DNA of 64,000 nt from Clostridiales bacterium (GTDB lineage Bacteria > Bacillota > Clostridia > Saccharofermentanales > Saccharofermentanaceae). Positions 48,289-55,276 of this stretch are shown one piece after another. The position numbers and the translations under genes are program-made. The stretch covers positions 62,001 through 126,000 of the forward strand of contig JAFZBN010000003.1 in NCBI GenBank assembly GCA_017561715.1, read 5' to 3'. Under the pieces are notes generated by a model. The model made no database searches, was not told where the DNA came from, and was given only the letters and a program-made list of their open reading frames with translations. Positions within the stretch are counted from its first letter, which is position 1; each line of letters begins with the position of its first letter.

Positions 48289-51252
48289 TTACGTTGCCGG
48301 AGCTGCCGTGGTCTCAGCCGGAGCAGCCGCCGTAGTTTCTGCCGGAGCAGCAGATGAATTCAGCAATGCCGCCGGCGGGAGCTTGATCTGGGCGCCTTCT
48401 GTCGGTACGAAGGAAGCATCCAGACCGTTGTATGTAAGGATCGTTGTGACGACCGGATCGGACTCGGACTCGATATTCATGCCGTATACACTGTGGAAGA
48501 GATCCCACCATGTGCGGCAGCCGGTCTTCGCGGAGAATGTATAAACACCGATCGGATCGTTCTCGGAACCCGGCGTAGATTCCGGAACTACCGGAGTGGT
48601 TTCGCTCGGGGTCGAATCGGAGATCTGGCCGGAAATATCCGTGATCGCCGTATCGGATACGGAAGTATCTACCGTTGAGCTCTTGCTGCTTCCACAGGAC
48701 TTCGCGATCAGCACGATGATGATGATCAGGCAGATCAGGGAAACGCCCGCGAGTACGAACGGCAGATAGCTGGAACCGAAGCCCTCATCGCCACTGTCGA
48801 AGCCGTCATCGATCGTATCCGGTCTTCTTCTTGCAGGCTGTGTGTTCGGACGGTTGCCCGGACGCTGCGGCTGCTGCGGACGCTTCACTCCCGGAACGGA
48901 ACCCGGACGAACTGCCTCACCCTGCTGCATATAAGCAGGAATGGAGGAAGCAACCGGTTCTGCCGCGGAAGGTGCGCCTGTCGGAGCCATATCGAAAAGA
49001 TCTGCCACGGACGGCGGCGGATTATCAAAGTCATACTGCGGAGCTGCGGCCGAAGCTGCGTACGGATCGTAATCTGCTTCAGTTACTGCCGGGATCTCCT
49101 GTGTCGGCTCGTCGTAGTAAGCGCTTCCCGCATCAGCGAACTGAGGCTGATCGAGGTTAACGAACGGGGAAGCCGGAGCCGGTGCCGGATTCACGAACTG
49201 CGACGGAGCAGCTTCGTCTTCGTCTACTGTGTAGGAACCACGTGCGTAAACGCCTGTATCCTCATATCCTACCGGTGTATCGCTGTTTGTCGGATACGTC
49301 GGCGGTACATATGACGGAGCTTCGTAAAGCGGCATTTCCGGAACATCGTTTGCGGAAGCGGTCGCGTTATTTGTCGCATCGCCCGAAGCAAACGGGATCA
49401 CGAACTCGCCGGCGCCCGGAACTTCTTCAGAAGGAGCCATGCCCTCAGCATAGTCGGACGGGTAACCTTCGTGTGTCTCATATTGATCTTCAGCGGATGA
49501 TTCTGCGTCACCGAAGAAAAGTGGTGTTTCATCGAACTCTTTTGGATCGTTGGAATACTCGGGTTCATCGTTCATAGGCTTCTTCACCTCATCTTCCGCT
49601 TCGAAAACGAGAGGAGCATCCTCTTCTGTTTCCGCAACAAACGCCGGAGCAGCACCTCCGGAGATCTGTTCAGTTCCTGCCACGTTCTGTTTGTCGACGA
49701 CCTCCTCGGAAGGCTTTCCGGTGAAGAGTTCATCGCCTATATAGAGCGGAGCACCGGTGTCGGCTTCTGCGGCCGGGCTTTCTCCGCCTACTTCAAAAGA
49801 TGCTTCGTCGGCTGCTTCTTTTACGACTGCTTCCGACTCATTCTGTGCCTTCACGGCAGCCTTGAAGAACGGGTTATCCTCGTTCTTTACGGCTACGAAA
49901 GGCTCATCCTTCTTGATTTCTTCGGTCTTCTGAGGAAGTACGAACGGACTTGCGGATTCTGCCGCTGTTTCCGCTGTCTTGGCCTCGAGCTCGGCAGCTG
50001 CCTTATCAAAGCTGTTCACGAACGGAACGACCTTCGTTACTTCATCATTCTCCGTTGCCGGAGCTTCTTTTGCCTTTTCGGGAACCGGTGTCACGCCGGT
50101 GTTGTCCTTCATCAGATCGGAGATGTCACCGAACGAAAGCGGCGGTTCCGGGATCGGTGTATTGATCGCGTCGTCGACCGCGGATCCTGCCACGGCACCT
50201 GCTGTCGCGGAAGCCGCTGCTTTGGAAGCTGTCTCGGCACCAAGGGATGCAATGGCATCAGCCGCTGTACCGACCGGCGGGATCACAGCTGTTGTCTCGA
50301 TGGCCTTTGCCTCAGGTGTCTTTTCCTTCTCGTCGCCGAAAAGCATCGCGTCCGGAGCCGGCTCTGCTTCTTCCTTCTTCGGGGACTCAAGCGGTACCGG
50401 CGGAGCTACGTTGTACTCATCGTCGAGATCTTCCTGCTGGGCAGCCTTCTTCTTCTTTCTTCCGAATCCGAACAGTCCGCCTCTTTCACTGGAAGTGATG
50501 TCTTCAACGAAGGAGATCATGAACTGCAGCGGAACGCCCGGAAGCTTCGCGGCTGCTTCGGTGATAACTACGCTTGCCGCATCGCTCTGGTCTTCCGCGT
50601 CGTAGAGGATGCGGAGGAGTTCCTGCTGACCCAAAGCCTCATAGACTTCACGGTTACAGAGGATGATGCAGTCATCAAGCTTCAGCTGGGCGATGTTGGA
50701 GCACAGCGCCGGAGCTGTCTTTGTCGCACAGAAATTATAGAAATTGTCGACCTTCTGACGGGCGGTGTTGATCGCGTCGATACGGATATCGGTCGCCGTC
50801 ATCGGGTAGAGTGTGTCGTCACGATAAAGGAACGCGAGTCCCTTGCCGATCGTAGAAGCAAATGCCTCACCATCTTTGACCATAACGCCGGCAAAAAACG
50901 GAGCACGGCTGTTGTCCTGCTGGATCTTCATCTTACCGGTAATGGAAACGGCGGTATTGACCATCTCGCCGATCGAATCGTCAAGAGATCTTCTTCCGGC
51001 CTTCAGTTCTGTACCGAGGCGGCGGAGGAACGGCTCATACGGCGGAAGAGCGTTCGGATCCTGATCCGCGATCGTCTGGTGAGAGAATACGGAGAAGAAA
51101 AAGCCTCTGTCCTCTTTATCGTTCGTCAGATCGGCCGAACGGGCAACGGTCTTGCTGGTCACACGACCATCCATATAAAATGCGTCAGTCAGTTCTGCTG
51201 TAGGAAAATATCTTGCTGTAAGCGTCGTCGCAAGACGAGTCTGCTTTGCCAT
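48289..51252 (-). CDS. PP2C-like pseudophosphatase with transmembrane anchor and external LysM-like domain
   Basis: 987 aa; start at MAKQTRLA after TTGGAGG. Residues about 1-260 follow the strand pattern of PP2C/Stp1 phosphatases: a GFFFSVFSHQ segment where SVSDGMGG would be, FAGVMVKDGEAF for the GDSR strand, LYPMTATD for the LT-DH loop, DDCIILCNREVYEAL for the SDG-x-x-D helix, and AKLPGVPLQFMISFV for DNITVIVV. The Asp residues that bind the two metals are lost, so it is probably inactive. A very long acidic, Ala/Pro-rich disordered linker (about 275-800) leads to one transmembrane helix (829-851), an external Ser/Thr linker and a C-terminal LysM-like fold (about 902-960, ends IKLP). It likely binds phospho-ligands inside and glycan outside. 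Own promoter and terminator: monocistronic. Confidence 0.85.
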   Translation of the reverse strand: MAKQTRLATTLTARYFPTAELTDAFYMDGRVTSKTVARSADLTNDKEDRGFFFSVFSHQTIADQDPNALPPYEPFLRRLGTELKAGRRSLDDSIGEMVNTAVSITGKMKIQQDNSRAPFFAGVMVKDGEAFASTIGKGLAFLYRDDTLYPMTATDIRIDAINTARQKVDNFYNFCATKTAPALCSNIAQLKLDDCIILCNREVYEALGQQELLRILYDAEDQSDAASVVITEAAAKLPGVPLQFMISFVEDITSSERGGLFGFGRKKKKAAQQEDLDDEYNVAPPVPLESPKKEEAEPAPDAMLFGDEKEKTPEAKAIETTAVIPPVGTAADAIASLGAETASKAAASATAGAVAGSAVDDAINTPIPEPPLSFGDISDLMKDNTGVTPVPEKAKEAPATENDEVTKVVPFVNSFDKAAAELEAKTAETAAESASPFVLPQKTEEIKKDEPFVAVKNEDNPFFKAAVKAQNESEAVVKEAADEASFEVGGESPAAEADTGAPLYIGDELFTGKPSEEVVDKQNVAGTEQISGGAAPAFVAETEEDAPLVFEAEDEVKKPMNDEPEYSNDPKEFDETPLFFGDAESSAEDQYETHEGYPSDYAEGMAPSEEVPGAGEFVIPFASGDATNNATASANDVPEMPLYEAPSYVPPTYPTNSDTPVGYEDTGVYARGSYTVDEDEAAPSQFVNPAPAPASPFVNLDQPQFADAGSAYYDEPTQEIPAVTEADYDPYAASAAAPQYDFDNPPPSVADLFDMAPTGAPSAAEPVASSIPAYMQQGEAVRPGSVPGVKRPQQPQRPGNRPNTQPARRRPDTIDDGFDSGDEGFGSSYLPFVLAGVSLICLIIIIVLIAKSCGSSKSSTVDTSVSDTAITDISGQISDSTPSETTPVVPESTPGSENDPIGVYTFSAKTGCRTWWDLFHSVYGMNIESESDPVVTTILTYNGLDASFVPTEGAQIKLPPAALLNSSAAPAETTAAAPAETTAAPAT

Positions 51253-51469: not shown

Positions 51470-53320
51470 TCAAGATTTCTTGCTCTCGACGAATTTTTCC
51501 ATGTCTTCCTTAAGGATCGGGAACGGCGCGCAGCCCAGATCGAGGTAGGCTTTCATGACCTCTTCCTTCGTACAGATGCCGTCGAGTTCTTTCACGGCGC
51601 TGTCGATGATCTCCGACGTGAAGATAAAACCGAACGCGTATTCTACGGCGAAGCACTGCTCTGCCGTAAGGCTCGACCAGTATTCATCCATGACAAACGA
51701 ATCCACGCCGTAGTGATTAAGATAAGTCTCGCAGTCCTCATAGGTCCAACCTTCGTACTCGATGCCGATGCTCATTCTCGCGGCAATCAGGATGCTGTAA
51801 AGGAGCGATGCCGTCCAGGCGCTTTCCGCCAGCTGCGGGTCAAAAGGCGCATAGTGGATCATGGTCCATTCGGAATACTTTGCCCAGCCCTCCGCGTAAG
51901 CTTTCGAGGTCGCGAACACCTGGTATCTGCTTTCGAGGTTTTCCGCCTGGTACTGATGCTGATAAAGATGACCGGGGTACATCTCGTGGCTGATCAGGGT
52001 AAACATATTGTACTCGGGGTTTTCGACAAGTCCCGTATTGACCCAGACCGTGTGTTTTGTGAAGTTATCGATCGGCGCGGAATAGTAGGTCGCCGGCTGG
52101 ACCGACTCACTGAACTTCTCGGGAACGTTAAAGATCGAGACTTCGTTTGCCGAGATCTGCGGAAAATGCTCAAAAGTAAAGCGTTCGCACCACTTTCTTG
52201 CGTCGTCGAACGACAGATCTCCGTATCCGAAATACGTGCCGTTCTTCTGCCACAGAGGCAGGTATGTGTCGTAGACCTCCGAGATCTTCGCCTGCAAAAG
52301 CTCCGTGCATTCTTCGACAGACATATCCGTTCCCGTCGTCAGATGGAAAAGCGCCTCGTAATAAGCTTTTCCGTCCGCCGTGGATGCCAGGTACGGTGTG
52401 TCGTTGCACATGCCTTTGAGCTCCGGGAGCTTTTCGATCAGCATCTCAAAGGCCGGATAGTAAGATGTGGCAAGGAGCTCATCGTTTCTTCGGATCAGTT
52501 CTTTGGTCTCCTGGTCCGAAAGATGAAGCGCGCCGACACGGCTTTCGAAGGTGGTCTTCATGAAGTTGGTGTCTCGGTCTTCCTGCATCTTCACACAGTC
52601 TTCGATGATGCGGTCGATGCATTCATCGCTCCAGCCGATGCCCATCTCAGATCTCTTCTTCTCTGCCTCAAAGACCTGCGTAAAGAAGTGTAAATAGTCC
52701 TCCAGGATGACGAAATAACGCATTACATCGTCTTTCGAATTGAACTGGATCAGAGAGGTCAGAAGCGGGTAAAGGATCTGCTTTCCGCCCATCGGATTCA
52801 GATGCGGAACATACTGGTAATACTTGTATTCCTGAGACATGTAAAGGAAGTCATAGCACATGTCCTTGATCGCGCGGTTCTGCCCTTCCGTCAGTTCATC
52901 CTGATCAAGGTTCGCCAGTTCCTGCGCAAAACTCGCGTAGCTTTCCGATGCCGAGGTATATTCGTCCTCCGTCGGGAAATGAAGGCCGACCGTCGGCCAG
53001 TCACTGTAGTAATTCTTCGGATCATCAAAAGAATAGTACGCCGTCAGAAGATCCGACGAACCGACGAAGACACCCATGTCGTAGTAGCGGAAAAGCGCCG
53101 ATGCCTCGCTCTCGTCATCGGCTCCGTGGCCGACACTTAACCATTTCTGGTCATCGTCGGGAAGCAGATCGCCGTTCGCGTCCGTCGCCGTTGTTGCCGC
53201 TCTGGGCTTGGCGATCTTATCCGGATCGACCTTTTTTGAGCACGCGCCAAGCGGTGCGATAAGGATCGCGCCGCAGGTAAGCAGTGCTATTGATTTAAAT
53301 GTCCGGTTGTATTTTTTCAT
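51470..53320 (-). CDS. DUF885 lipoprotein, HExxPGH-type zinc peptidase (copy 2)
   Basis: 616 aa. Signal peptide and lipobox (APLGAC, Cys about 27). DUF885 fold with the zinc motif LISHEMYPGHLYQHQY (about 455-470) and the downstream metal/catalytic block AYAEGWAKYSEW; the third region (LYSILIAARMSIGIEYEGWT) is also conserved. Members are carboxypeptidase-like zinc enzymes of uncertain substrate. It lies 12 nt downstream of a paralogous gene, and both keep the same N-terminal layout (short charged linker, then WPTVGLHF / WPTVGIEPY). The pair is a probable tandem duplication in one operon. Confidence 0.9.
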   Translation of the reverse strand: MKKYNRTFKSIALLTCGAILIAPLGACSKKVDPDKIAKPRAATTATDANGDLLPDDDQKWLSVGHGADDESEASALFRYYDMGVFVGSSDLLTAYYSFDDPKNYYSDWPTVGLHFPTEDEYTSASESYASFAQELANLDQDELTEGQNRAIKDMCYDFLYMSQEYKYYQYVPHLNPMGGKQILYPLLTSLIQFNSKDDVMRYFVILEDYLHFFTQVFEAEKKRSEMGIGWSDECIDRIIEDCVKMQEDRDTNFMKTTFESRVGALHLSDQETKELIRRNDELLATSYYPAFEMLIEKLPELKGMCNDTPYLASTADGKAYYEALFHLTTGTDMSVEECTELLQAKISEVYDTYLPLWQKNGTYFGYGDLSFDDARKWCERFTFEHFPQISANEVSIFNVPEKFSESVQPATYYSAPIDNFTKHTVWVNTGLVENPEYNMFTLISHEMYPGHLYQHQYQAENLESRYQVFATSKAYAEGWAKYSEWTMIHYAPFDPQLAESAWTASLLYSILIAARMSIGIEYEGWTYEDCETYLNHYGVDSFVMDEYWSSLTAEQCFAVEYAFGFIFTSEIIDSAVKELDGICTKEEVMKAYLDLGCAPFPILKEDMEKFVESKKS

Positions 53321-53332
53321 GCAGTATTCCGA

Positions 53333-55276
53333 TCAGTGCTGTTTTTCTACGTAAAGCGGCATGTATTTCTCGAGGATGTCGAAGGAGCTCGCGCCCATGT
53401 CGAGATACGCGGCATGGATCTCCTTCATCGAGTACTCGTTGCCGTACTGTGCGACTGCGTCATTGATGATCTTACTGCAGTAGTAGTTACCGAAGCAGTA
53501 AGGTGTGACATAGCACGGGATCTCGACCGTCGTATCCCACATCTCATCTGCGATCCCGGAGCCTATACCCGGGAAGTACTGGTTGAAATAGTCGGCTACA
53601 TCGTCCTTCGTCCATCCGTCGTAGTGCACGCCGATATCGACATATGCCCACATGTGGTAGTTCAGAAGGTCAACGTAAAGATCGTAAGTATCATACACGA
53701 CCTGATCGTAGTCGGTCAGCGTAACGATGTAGTCTTCCGAATAGGTGGACCAGCCTTCTTTGTACGCTGTCGTTCCGCCCTTCTGGTAGTAGTTGTTCAT
53801 GTAGATCATGTGGTAGACTGCTTCGTACATATGGCCCGGCAGCGCCTCGTGCGCGACCGTTGTGAGCATTTCGCCCAGTCCGTCACTCTTGTCATTGATC
53901 ATCAGGACATTTTTCGTGATGTCATCGTACGGTGTGGACATATAGGCCGCGGGAGAAAAATATTTCGACATCTCTTCCGGAATGTGATAGACCGAATACT
54001 TGATCTCGCCGAGATCCGGAAAGTCGGATTTGATGGCATCTCTACAGAATTCGACATCCGATTCAAAAGAACCGGTCGTGTAGTTGAAGTCACCGGAGAC
54101 GACCTGCCGGTACTGGTCACTGTTCAGCTGCGAAAGAGCCGTATAGAAATCCGCAAATTCCTGTTGGATCAGGCCTTCCAGAATTGCCTTTGCCTCATCG
54201 ATCGTAAGGTTGGTTCCGGAACGATACTGGAAATACTTCTCGTAGAACTCTTTTCCTCCGGGCATGTCGCAGACGTTACCGTTTGTCATCGCCGTGCCGT
54301 AAAGAGTCTTCATATTCTCCGCGAGTCTCTCATAGCCCGGGAAGAAAGAAGTATCGAGGATCTCTTTGTTTCTCGCGATCAGGTCCTGCTTCGTGGAAGC
54401 GTCGAGATCCATCGCGTTGATGCGGTCTTCAAAAGTAGTGTACATGTAGTTGCCGTCGTGATCTTTATAGACAGCCTCGAGAGATTCAATGACCTTCTTA
54501 AGGATCTCGTCCGGGTAGGATCTTCCGAGCTCGGCACGTTTCTTCTCGTATTCGAACATCGAATCGTAGTACGGTCCGACGTCGTTTAACATCGTCAGGT
54601 AACGCTCGACGTCTGCCTGATCATCAAAGTTCATCGTCGCGAAAATGATCGGCAGCTCTACGTTCGTGCCGGTCAGATCGTTGACCGAACTTAAGTAGAA
54701 ATCCATGCCGTACATATCCAGTGAAAGCTCATAGTCGCCCTTGATGGTCTCATAAAGGATCTGATCTTCCAGTTCCAGGGAATCAAAATCGATCTCATCG
54801 AGTGTATCCAGTACATGTACGGAGAACTCATAGTTTTCGACCTCGGCGTCCATAGTGTATGGCTCGATACCGACCGTCGGCCATTCCAAACCGAGCTTTT
54901 CGGGATCTTCTACGTCATAAACGAGGGAAATGATATCCGTTTTCCCCTCTTTGAAGATCTCTTCGTCAAGTTCATGGAGTTTATTTGTCGCGTCAGCGCC
55001 GAAATAGATCGTATCTTTCGGATCGCGCGCGGTCGTCGGAGGATACAGCGTCGGATCCGGCATGGTATCCGTAGGGGCAGTATCCGTAGGTATCGTATCC
55101 GTCGGATCAGTAGATTCAGAAGGTTCGTCTGTAGTCTCTGTCGGCTCTTGTGTCGTCTTTCTTTTCTTTTTCTTCTTTGTTGTCGTTTCTTCGGGTCTGC
55201 ATGCCGCGAGAATGATCGATGCCGAAAGAACAAGGCATCCCAATACGCGCAGCTTGTTTCTGATCGTCTTATTCAT
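53333..55276 (-). CDS. DUF885 lipoprotein, HExxPGH-type zinc peptidase (copy 1)
   Basis: 647 aa. Signal peptide, lipobox (ILAAC, Cys about 26), a Lys-rich stretch and a Thr/Asp/Pro linker (about 34-95), then the DUF885 domain with TVAHEALPGHMYEAVYH (zinc motif HEALPGH) and YKEGWSTYSEDY. Both metal motifs are intact. Extracellular and membrane-anchored. First of the tandem pair. The start is preceded by GAAGGAG. The two copies are clearly diverged, since the zinc motifs differ around the core (HEMYPGH versus HEALPGH), so different substrates are likely (inference). Confidence 0.9.
   Translation of the reverse strand: MNKTIRNKLRVLGCLVLSASIILAACRPEETTTKKKKKRKTTQEPTETTDEPSESTDPTDTIPTDTAPTDTMPDPTLYPPTTARDPKDTIYFGADATNKLHELDEEIFKEGKTDIISLVYDVEDPEKLGLEWPTVGIEPYTMDAEVENYEFSVHVLDTLDEIDFDSLELEDQILYETIKGDYELSLDMYGMDFYLSSVNDLTGTNVELPIIFATMNFDDQADVERYLTMLNDVGPYYDSMFEYEKKRAELGRSYPDEILKKVIESLEAVYKDHDGNYMYTTFEDRINAMDLDASTKQDLIARNKEILDTSFFPGYERLAENMKTLYGTAMTNGNVCDMPGGKEFYEKYFQYRSGTNLTIDEAKAILEGLIQQEFADFYTALSQLNSDQYRQVVSGDFNYTTGSFESDVEFCRDAIKSDFPDLGEIKYSVYHIPEEMSKYFSPAAYMSTPYDDITKNVLMINDKSDGLGEMLTTVAHEALPGHMYEAVYHMIYMNNYYQKGGTTAYKEGWSTYSEDYIVTLTDYDQVVYDTYDLYVDLLNYHMWAYVDIGVHYDGWTKDDVADYFNQYFPGIGSGIADEMWDTTVEIPCYVTPYCFGNYYCSKIINDAVAQYGNEYSMKEIHAAYLDMGASSFDILEKYMPLYVEKQH

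Follow-up and report, generated by a model that had tools for sequence, protein, structure and literature searches.

A predicted wall-linked pseudophosphatase with an internal PP2C-like domain and an external LysM-like domain in Saccharofermentanales

What a phosphatase fold does in a membrane protein after its catalytic residues are gone is the question raised by one gene in the window, a stretch of 64,000 nucleotides from a Clostridiales bacterium of the order Saccharofermentanales (assembly GCA_017561715.1, contig JAFZBN010000003.1, positions 62,001 to 126,000). The original prediction, made from the letters of this stretch, had described its product as a receptor-like PP2C pseudophosphatase; its coordinates proved right, with the strand, then unstated, now set as minus. 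Since a GGAGG lies directly 5′ of the ATG and the relatives share the same start Met, this start is supported and a longer open reading frame (ORF) of 998 amino acids is unnecessary. The gene is single-copy in its genome (2.47 Mb, 92.4% complete). A promoter scan gave no informative signal. The whole protein matched no Pfam family, and so neither a kinase domain nor PASTA repeats, and only one noise entry of NCBIfam. We consider it somewhat probable that the protein is a single-pass, wall-linked, receptor-like pseudophosphatase, of which the PP2C fold would bind a cytoplasmic protein without dephosphorylating it and the linker would recruit partners, with a signalling complex being placed or gated by the state of the wall.

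The N-terminal domain has, by prediction and homology, a PP2C fold. AlphaFold2 modelled it with moderate confidence (mean predicted local distance difference test, pLDDT, 63.6; predicted template modelling score, pTM, 0.69), and a Foldseek search with the model yielded 127 matches at E ≤ 0.001, the best being 2pk0 (E 9.1e-9), with all of the 50 matches listed belonging to PP2C/PPM or SpoIIE-type phosphatases. Superposition by VIA-align gave Z 15.1 against 2pk0 (root-mean-square deviation 3.8 over 197 residues), Z ≥ 14 to PppA, Stp1 and tPphA, and Z 11.0 to the pseudophosphatase TAB1 (2pop). The PP2C strand order read earlier from the sequence is thus borne out by the model and by both structural comparisons. 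On the profile level, 39 rows of the domain across the order (A4) were aligned by hhalign with 23 rows of a sister family (A3) at a probability of 99.0 and E 3e-18, covering 255 columns over the length of A4; A3 in turn matched the solved structures of PppA (6jkv, E 1.1e-10), tPphA (E about 4e-8) and also PstP, so that the chain from the order to solved PP2Cs closes via the intermediate family. The profile of a genus-level alignment found only noise among the solved structures.

The motif positions were placed by the A4/A3 profile-profile alignment together with L179, a canonical relative from another clostridial family, and residues were counted over the 39 rows of the order. Asp occupies the motif-2, motif-8 and motif-11 positions in none of these rows: the motif-2 position (S57 in the target protein) carries Ala in 27, Ser in 5, Gly in 5 and Thr in 2, the motif-8 position (R201) mostly Arg or Lys, and the motif-11 position is V240. 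The substitutions of SHQ for DGM and CNR for SDG noticed from the sequence are aligned in just this way, and no alternative alignment restores the ligands; the statement that the metal-binding Asp residues are lacking, however, holds for three of the four, with the motif-1 Asp (D23) retained in 36 rows. Further, the Gly beside the motif-8 Asp (E202 in the target protein) is in no row a Gly, the motif-4 Thr position (F119) is taken by Tyr in 33, Phe in 5 and Trp in 1, and G136, matching the Gly of GDSR, is kept in 36, motifs 5 and 6 not being separable. Other conserved residues of the domain include D28, G29, R30, D41, D45, R144, S185, N186, N200, D221, Q222 and Q243. The target protein presumably lacks phosphatase catalysis, as judged from its motif residues.

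The dead domain is nevertheless kept. A whole-protein search found relatives in 107 of the family's 115 genomes; those with names come mainly from Clostridiales assemblies of rumen and gut, and include Candidatus Scatonaster (Saccharofermentanales at NCBI). When a 23-row profile of the N-terminal domain (A1) was used, it matched 176 of 188 genomes of the order, 101 of the 106 good ones among them, and all 30 of its genera, almost invariably as a single copy, a breadth that makes the observation more than chance; in a class-wide draw it matched 16 of 391 genomes, i.e. 15 of the order plus G354 of family f10. The ratio of nonsynonymous to synonymous substitution rates (dN/dS) was determined for 11 pairs of the window gene and its congeners, for linker and stalk only where computable and for LysM minus one pair with 6 aligned codons, and ranged from 0.005 to 0.048 in the PP2C-like domain, 0.088 to 0.223 in the linker, 0.245 to 0.567 in the stalk and 0.087 to 0.443 in LysM. 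The dead PP2C-like domain is the most constrained part of the protein: compared with the three nearest genomes, residues 1-260 are identical or nearly so at 0.28-0.43 synonymous changes per site. Given this low dN/dS and the presence across the order, the domain would be a working pseudophosphatase and no relic. In a tree of 47 domains, with an arbitrary root and many inner forks open, the order forms one group (support 100/100) and the sister family another (100/99), and the order's stem, with 1.95 changes per column, exceeds any other inner branch; this shape fits a single episode of rapid change ahead of the order's radiation, with near stasis since then.

Toward the C-terminus, the sole stretch with a mean Kyte-Doolittle value above 1.9 lies at residues ~832-850, in agreement with the one transmembrane helix proposed earlier. 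Because the protein has no N-terminal signal and Lys/Arg clusters precede the helix, the predicted orientation is N-inside and C-outside. Residues 895-972 (78 taken) were modelled in beta-alpha-alpha-beta order (pLDDT 76.7, pTM 0.60), the aligned C-termini of the order and the sister family (A5, 52 rows) are homologous, and Pfam LysM (PF01476) scored over its cut-off in 8 of 10 relatives scanned in the order. By homology, which is the firm evidence here, the C-terminal domain is a LysM and presumably holds peptidoglycan. The LysM-like fold suggested before is thereby upheld by the model and the relatives, although not by a Pfam hit in the target protein itself. A C-terminal profile compared with solved structures gave noise only.

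Between the two domains the linker spans 558 residues in the measured stretch, with 19.5% Asp+Glu, a net charge of −71 and neither Trp nor Cys, and is probably disordered, as its composition and divergence suggest. The long, acidic and disordered linker of about 525 residues in the original prediction is therefore confirmed in kind and extended to ~560, but is not featureless, as it carries PLxFGD and SPFV repeats. An unguided count over 26 linkers of family f1 ranked FGD as the most over-represented 3-mer (67, ~28-fold) and PFV as the third (66, ~15-fold), and the target linker contains PL.[FYI]G[DE] 3 times versus 0.0, and PFV 4 times versus 0.17, in shuffles. Since the patterns were picked after viewing the sequences and the f1 linkers are homologous, counts over sequences are not independent. 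Sought in f2, f3, f4 and f10, the f1 motifs were absent beyond a weak FG[DE] excess in f2 (14 versus 4.35), and being restricted to f1 they cannot belong to an order-wide mechanism. Linker lengths are 579-677 residues in four proteins of f1 genus 5, 161-263 in f2, 45-324 in f3 and 72-142 in f4. The f2 linkers (e.g. L087, L118, L119, L093 and L094) have a motif of another kind, TQR (ARTQRY or similar), which has 8 occurrences among 9 linkers, 25 times the expected number, and might be a phosphorylation or docking site.

The sister family links the target protein to catalytic-looking relatives of the same layout. Its representative P0002 (G354, family f10), of 484 amino acids including 38 residues before the likely start, runs from a PP2C-like domain through a membrane helix and a Thr/Pro-rich stalk to a clear LysM (PF01476, E 5.6e-11), and genes matching most of P0002 occur in 28 of 32 f10 genomes, one of them (L135) split over two frames. 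All four Asp are present in 9 of the 23 sister-family rows, L144 and L147 being examples, and a tenth has Glu at the last, while the 13 others have lost one or more. Class-wide, A3 at 1e-6 matched 154 of 391 genomes, many of the matches being ordinary soluble PP2C, and 35 further clostridial loci were hand-picked from these matches; in 17 of the 35 a simple pattern picks out a LysM-like C-terminus. Among the 35, L179, with its membrane helix and LysM repeats, is fully canonical (NNED, CDGMGG, SDG, DN), the catalytic residues of L173 and of the f28 proteins are close to intact, and L175, L181 and the f42 proteins L185, L186 and L192 carry a degraded PP2C-like domain. In a phylum-wide draw, A3 at 1e-15 matched 3 of 398 genomes, namely our own and two with ORFs of 232 and 244 amino acids, short enough for plain PP2C.

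With its homologous PP2C-like domain, one transmembrane helix and external LysM, the target protein fits this family of clostridial membrane PP2C-LysM proteins, of which it appears, from sequence comparison, to be a fully decayed branch, the family spanning several clostridial families. Because the sister family shares the layout with four Asp kept in 9 of 23 rows, and L179 is canonical with helix and LysM, a receptor-like phosphatase ancestor is plausible, and catalysis was likely lost several times independently in Clostridia. The unnamed members (the P0002 family and part of L171-L205) have the same order of parts and a homologous PP2C-like domain; they differ in that several keep the catalytic Asp, and in the P0002 family the linker is basic and of 33-51 residues, versus acidic and of 560 in the target. 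A natural series on one layout is hence at hand, from canonical (L179) over nearly intact (9 of 23 sisters) to fully dead (the whole order), by which the role of the phosphatase fold after loss of catalysis can be tested by comparing relatives. Two other protein kinds were observed in the same search. L188, L189, L200, L201 and L204 combine a degraded PP2C-like domain with a membrane helix and long Thr/Pro-rich repeats outside but no LysM, and appear to be another kind of clostridial membrane pseudo-PP2C; in the f27 proteins (L198 1-5501, L199 1-3716) the degraded PP2C-like domain is split by a long acidic insert and followed by a membrane helix and LysM, possibly a separate route to an acidic pseudophosphatase receptor.

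The genome is not short of an ordinary phosphatase. Contig 18 carries a prpC-prkC pair, in which an intact PP2C (NNED, ADGMGG, CSDG, PDN) adjoins a PASTA kinase of 720 amino acids, and both PASTA and PP2C_2 scored over cut-off in 41 of 41 relatives. That no partner kinase lies in the window, as noted at the outset, agrees with the three Pkinase matches of the genome all falling on other contigs than the window's, but the usual pair of PASTA kinase and intact PrpC is present elsewhere in the genome. As the cell keeps an active-looking PrpC for its kinase, the target protein would be additional and non-catalytic. A second Ser/Thr signalling island was seen on contig 2 at ~28.9-32.5 kb (L165, L166), with domain names assigned by eye: its kinase (Pkinase match C2:28948-29604) has no PASTA, one of its two PP2C genes encodes an N-terminal membrane helix, and it further contains a trypsin-like protease, apparently ending in an FHA domain, and an FHA-like protein.

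In the mechanism that we propose, the LysM domain would grip peptidoglycan outside, the PP2C fold would bind a cytoplasmic protein inside and leave its phosphates in place, the long flexible linker with its repeated short motifs would, in f1, recruit further partners, and the protein would so place or gate a signalling complex depending on the state of the wall. The clients could be proteins of the PrkC/PrpC Ser/Thr phosphorylation pathway also present in the cell; that the most plausible clients belong there is a guess. Its near-constancy throughout a whole order of gut and environmental bacteria makes it probable that the protein passes on or anchors something between wall and cytoplasm, and not as an enzyme.

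Several results weigh against this proposal. The sister family's Arg before motif 1, which belongs to the phosphate site and is present in 20 of 23 sister-family rows, did not appear at the corresponding position in the 35 order rows (of 39) listed, which speaks against binding of phosphoproteins in the old active site. At the other end, besides the missing Pfam match in the target, the C-terminal model had no Foldseek match under 1e-3 (best E 0.13), the weak list mixing Ecp6, CEBiP, SleL and LYK3 with phage or injection-system baseplates and unrelated chains, and the highest VIA-align score was Z 5.5, the LysM 4uz3 scoring Z 4.9 (rmsd 1.9, 47 residues). In the window protein's own family, moreover, a conserved GCRTWWD, GYRTWWD or GFRTWWD, one residue longer, stands where LysM usually has GDT, and this loss and extra residue may alter what the domain binds; the LysM of L085 is canonical. 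No kinase or other constant neighbour gene accompanies the target, the neighbours differing between families. The fold itself can be questioned, as Pfam PP2C stayed below cut-off for the N-terminal domain (E 0.24), the order-wide profile A4 found no PP2C chain in the PDB, and the link to PP2C runs via the sister family and a model with a mean pLDDT of only 63.6; that the domain is not PP2C and merely shares a general shape is yet very improbable in view of the full-length profile match to a family that itself matches solved PP2Cs and of the Foldseek matches, all PP2C/PPM-type among those listed.

Among the other explanations, that the protein is a decaying remnant of what was once a receptor phosphatase might be read from the Asp lost in the order and the partial losses in sister proteins; this explanation was ruled out by the dN/dS of the dead domain and by the presence in nearly all good genomes of the order, and its probability is next to negligible. 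A passive tether, anchoring a cytoplasmic protein or complex at the wall-membrane interface with no sensing, fits the lack of a partner gene nearby, the linker of ~560-680 residues in the own family and the stalk as the fastest-evolving part, as for a spacer, and the repeated linker motifs, which suit multivalent recruitment. We hold it rather unlikely, as the receptor-like layout shared by catalytic-looking sister proteins would be superfluous for a mere tether and the almost unchanging domain sequence points to an interaction that is specific and regulated. Less likely still, the PP2C-like fold may have gained another activity or ligand site, such as a new metal or nucleotide site: D23, D28, D41, D45, R30, N186, N200 and Q243 are held in 36-39 of the 39 order rows, which seems beyond the need of a plain interaction scaffold, and PHLPP2 offers a precedent of a dead PP2C with an altered metal site (PMC12002173), but no known site resembles this residue set. 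The wall-linked pseudophosphatase remains our preferred explanation.

Animals are known to use pseudokinases and pseudophosphatases as regulators, and first descriptions of bacterial pseudokinases are beginning to appear. The plant LysM receptor kinases (CERK1/LYK) have LysM outside and a kinase as signalling domain inside; the target protein resembles them in carrying LysM outside and a signalling domain inside, whereas theirs is a kinase, from another kingdom, and the layout is convergent. The PrpC/Stp1/PstP phosphatases have the same PP2C fold as the target protein, but keep the metal Asp and adjoin a PASTA kinase gene; the PrpC of the target's own genome is intact, the target itself is not. 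PASTA kinases (PrkC/PknB/Stk1) are known wall-to-cytoplasm receptors of the same topology (PMC6213207), and are likewise single-pass Gram-positive proteins with a cytoplasmic signalling domain and an external wall-type domain; they carry a kinase and PASTA, and the target protein a dead phosphatase fold and LysM. Animals offer precedents for a dead PP2C with a retained binding role in the eukaryotic pseudophosphatases TAB1 and PHLPP1/2: PHLPP2, whose active site was reportedly lost in the ancestor of the metazoans, is inactive in vitro and has been proposed to serve as a scaffold at the membrane, with TAB1 as a related pseudophosphatase (PMC12002173). These proteins share with the target a PP2C fold, catalytic residues lost in a once-active lineage and a proposed scaffold role, but PHLPP2 and TAB1 reportedly keep a single metal in the M2 site, whereas the target has lost the Asp of motifs 2, 8 and 11; the transmembrane and LysM layout also sets it apart, and no recent common descent is shown.

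No bacterial transmembrane pseudophosphatase or PP2C-LysM protein was found in the literature of open-licence full texts, and the accessible parts of PMC8262956 and PMC12599244 describe no such protein. The family suggests a second wall-to-cytoplasm channel beside the PASTA kinases in Clostridia, carried by a gene that almost all genomes of this rumen and gut order possess. More tentatively, and as something possible rather than probable, a class of bacterial receptor pseudophosphatases with a wall-binding LysM outside and PP2C inside may exist. Several clostridial lineages of this class would have given up catalysis while retaining the receptor layout, and in Saccharofermentanales it would have turned into a fixed, core, non-catalytic transducer controlling Ser/Thr phosphorylation by binding alone. 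The parts of the target gene are collected in Table 1.

Table 1. Parts of the target gene, in positions of the window
Feature	Position	Strand	Basis
Whole gene, 987 amino acids	48289..51252	minus	ATG at 51252, stop at 48289
Cytoplasmic PP2C-like domain, residues 1-260, dead by sequence	50473..51252	minus	structure model, homology, ligand counts
D23, kept motif-1 Asp (36/39 order rows)	51184..51186	minus	profile alignment, residue counts
S57 at motif-2 metal Asp position (DGMGG); Asp in 0/39 order rows	51082..51084	minus	profile alignment, counts
R201 at motif-8 metal Asp position (SDG); Asp in 0/39 order rows	50650..50652	minus	profile alignment, counts
V240 at motif-11 metal Asp position (DN); Asp in 0/39 order rows	50533..50535	minus	profile alignment, counts
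Acidic linker, ~residues 264-825, repeated PLxFGD/FGD and SPFV/PFV motifs	48778..50463	minus	composition, motif counts
Single predicted transmembrane helix, residues 832-850	48703..48759	minus	hydropathy
Ser/Thr/Glu/Pro-rich external stalk, residues 851-898	48559..48702	minus	composition; fastest-evolving part
LysM-like domain, residues 899-968	48349..48558	minus	homology, Pfam in relatives, structure model

The surroundings of the gene vary between families, with gene names here read from sequence: SerC/SerA-like genes lie downstream of the target in f1, f3 and f4, RadA/IspD-like genes upstream in f2, a CCA-like gene together with a large membrane protein in f4 loci, and AMP-ligase and apgM-like genes in f10 loci. 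Directly upstream of the target in the window, 51470-55276 encodes two tandem related lipoproteins, DUF885-like by eye; most congeneric loci retain both genes (cluster 1, with 36 copies in the g1 loci). Ten genus groups of the order encode near the target, and running opposite to it, a very large multi-membrane protein of DUF2298/YYY type by eye (cluster 7; loci including L083, L087, L085, L111 and L104), and in four genera of f4 the gene of an RCC1-repeat-like secreted protein lies close by (cluster 14; the L085 region and other f4 loci).

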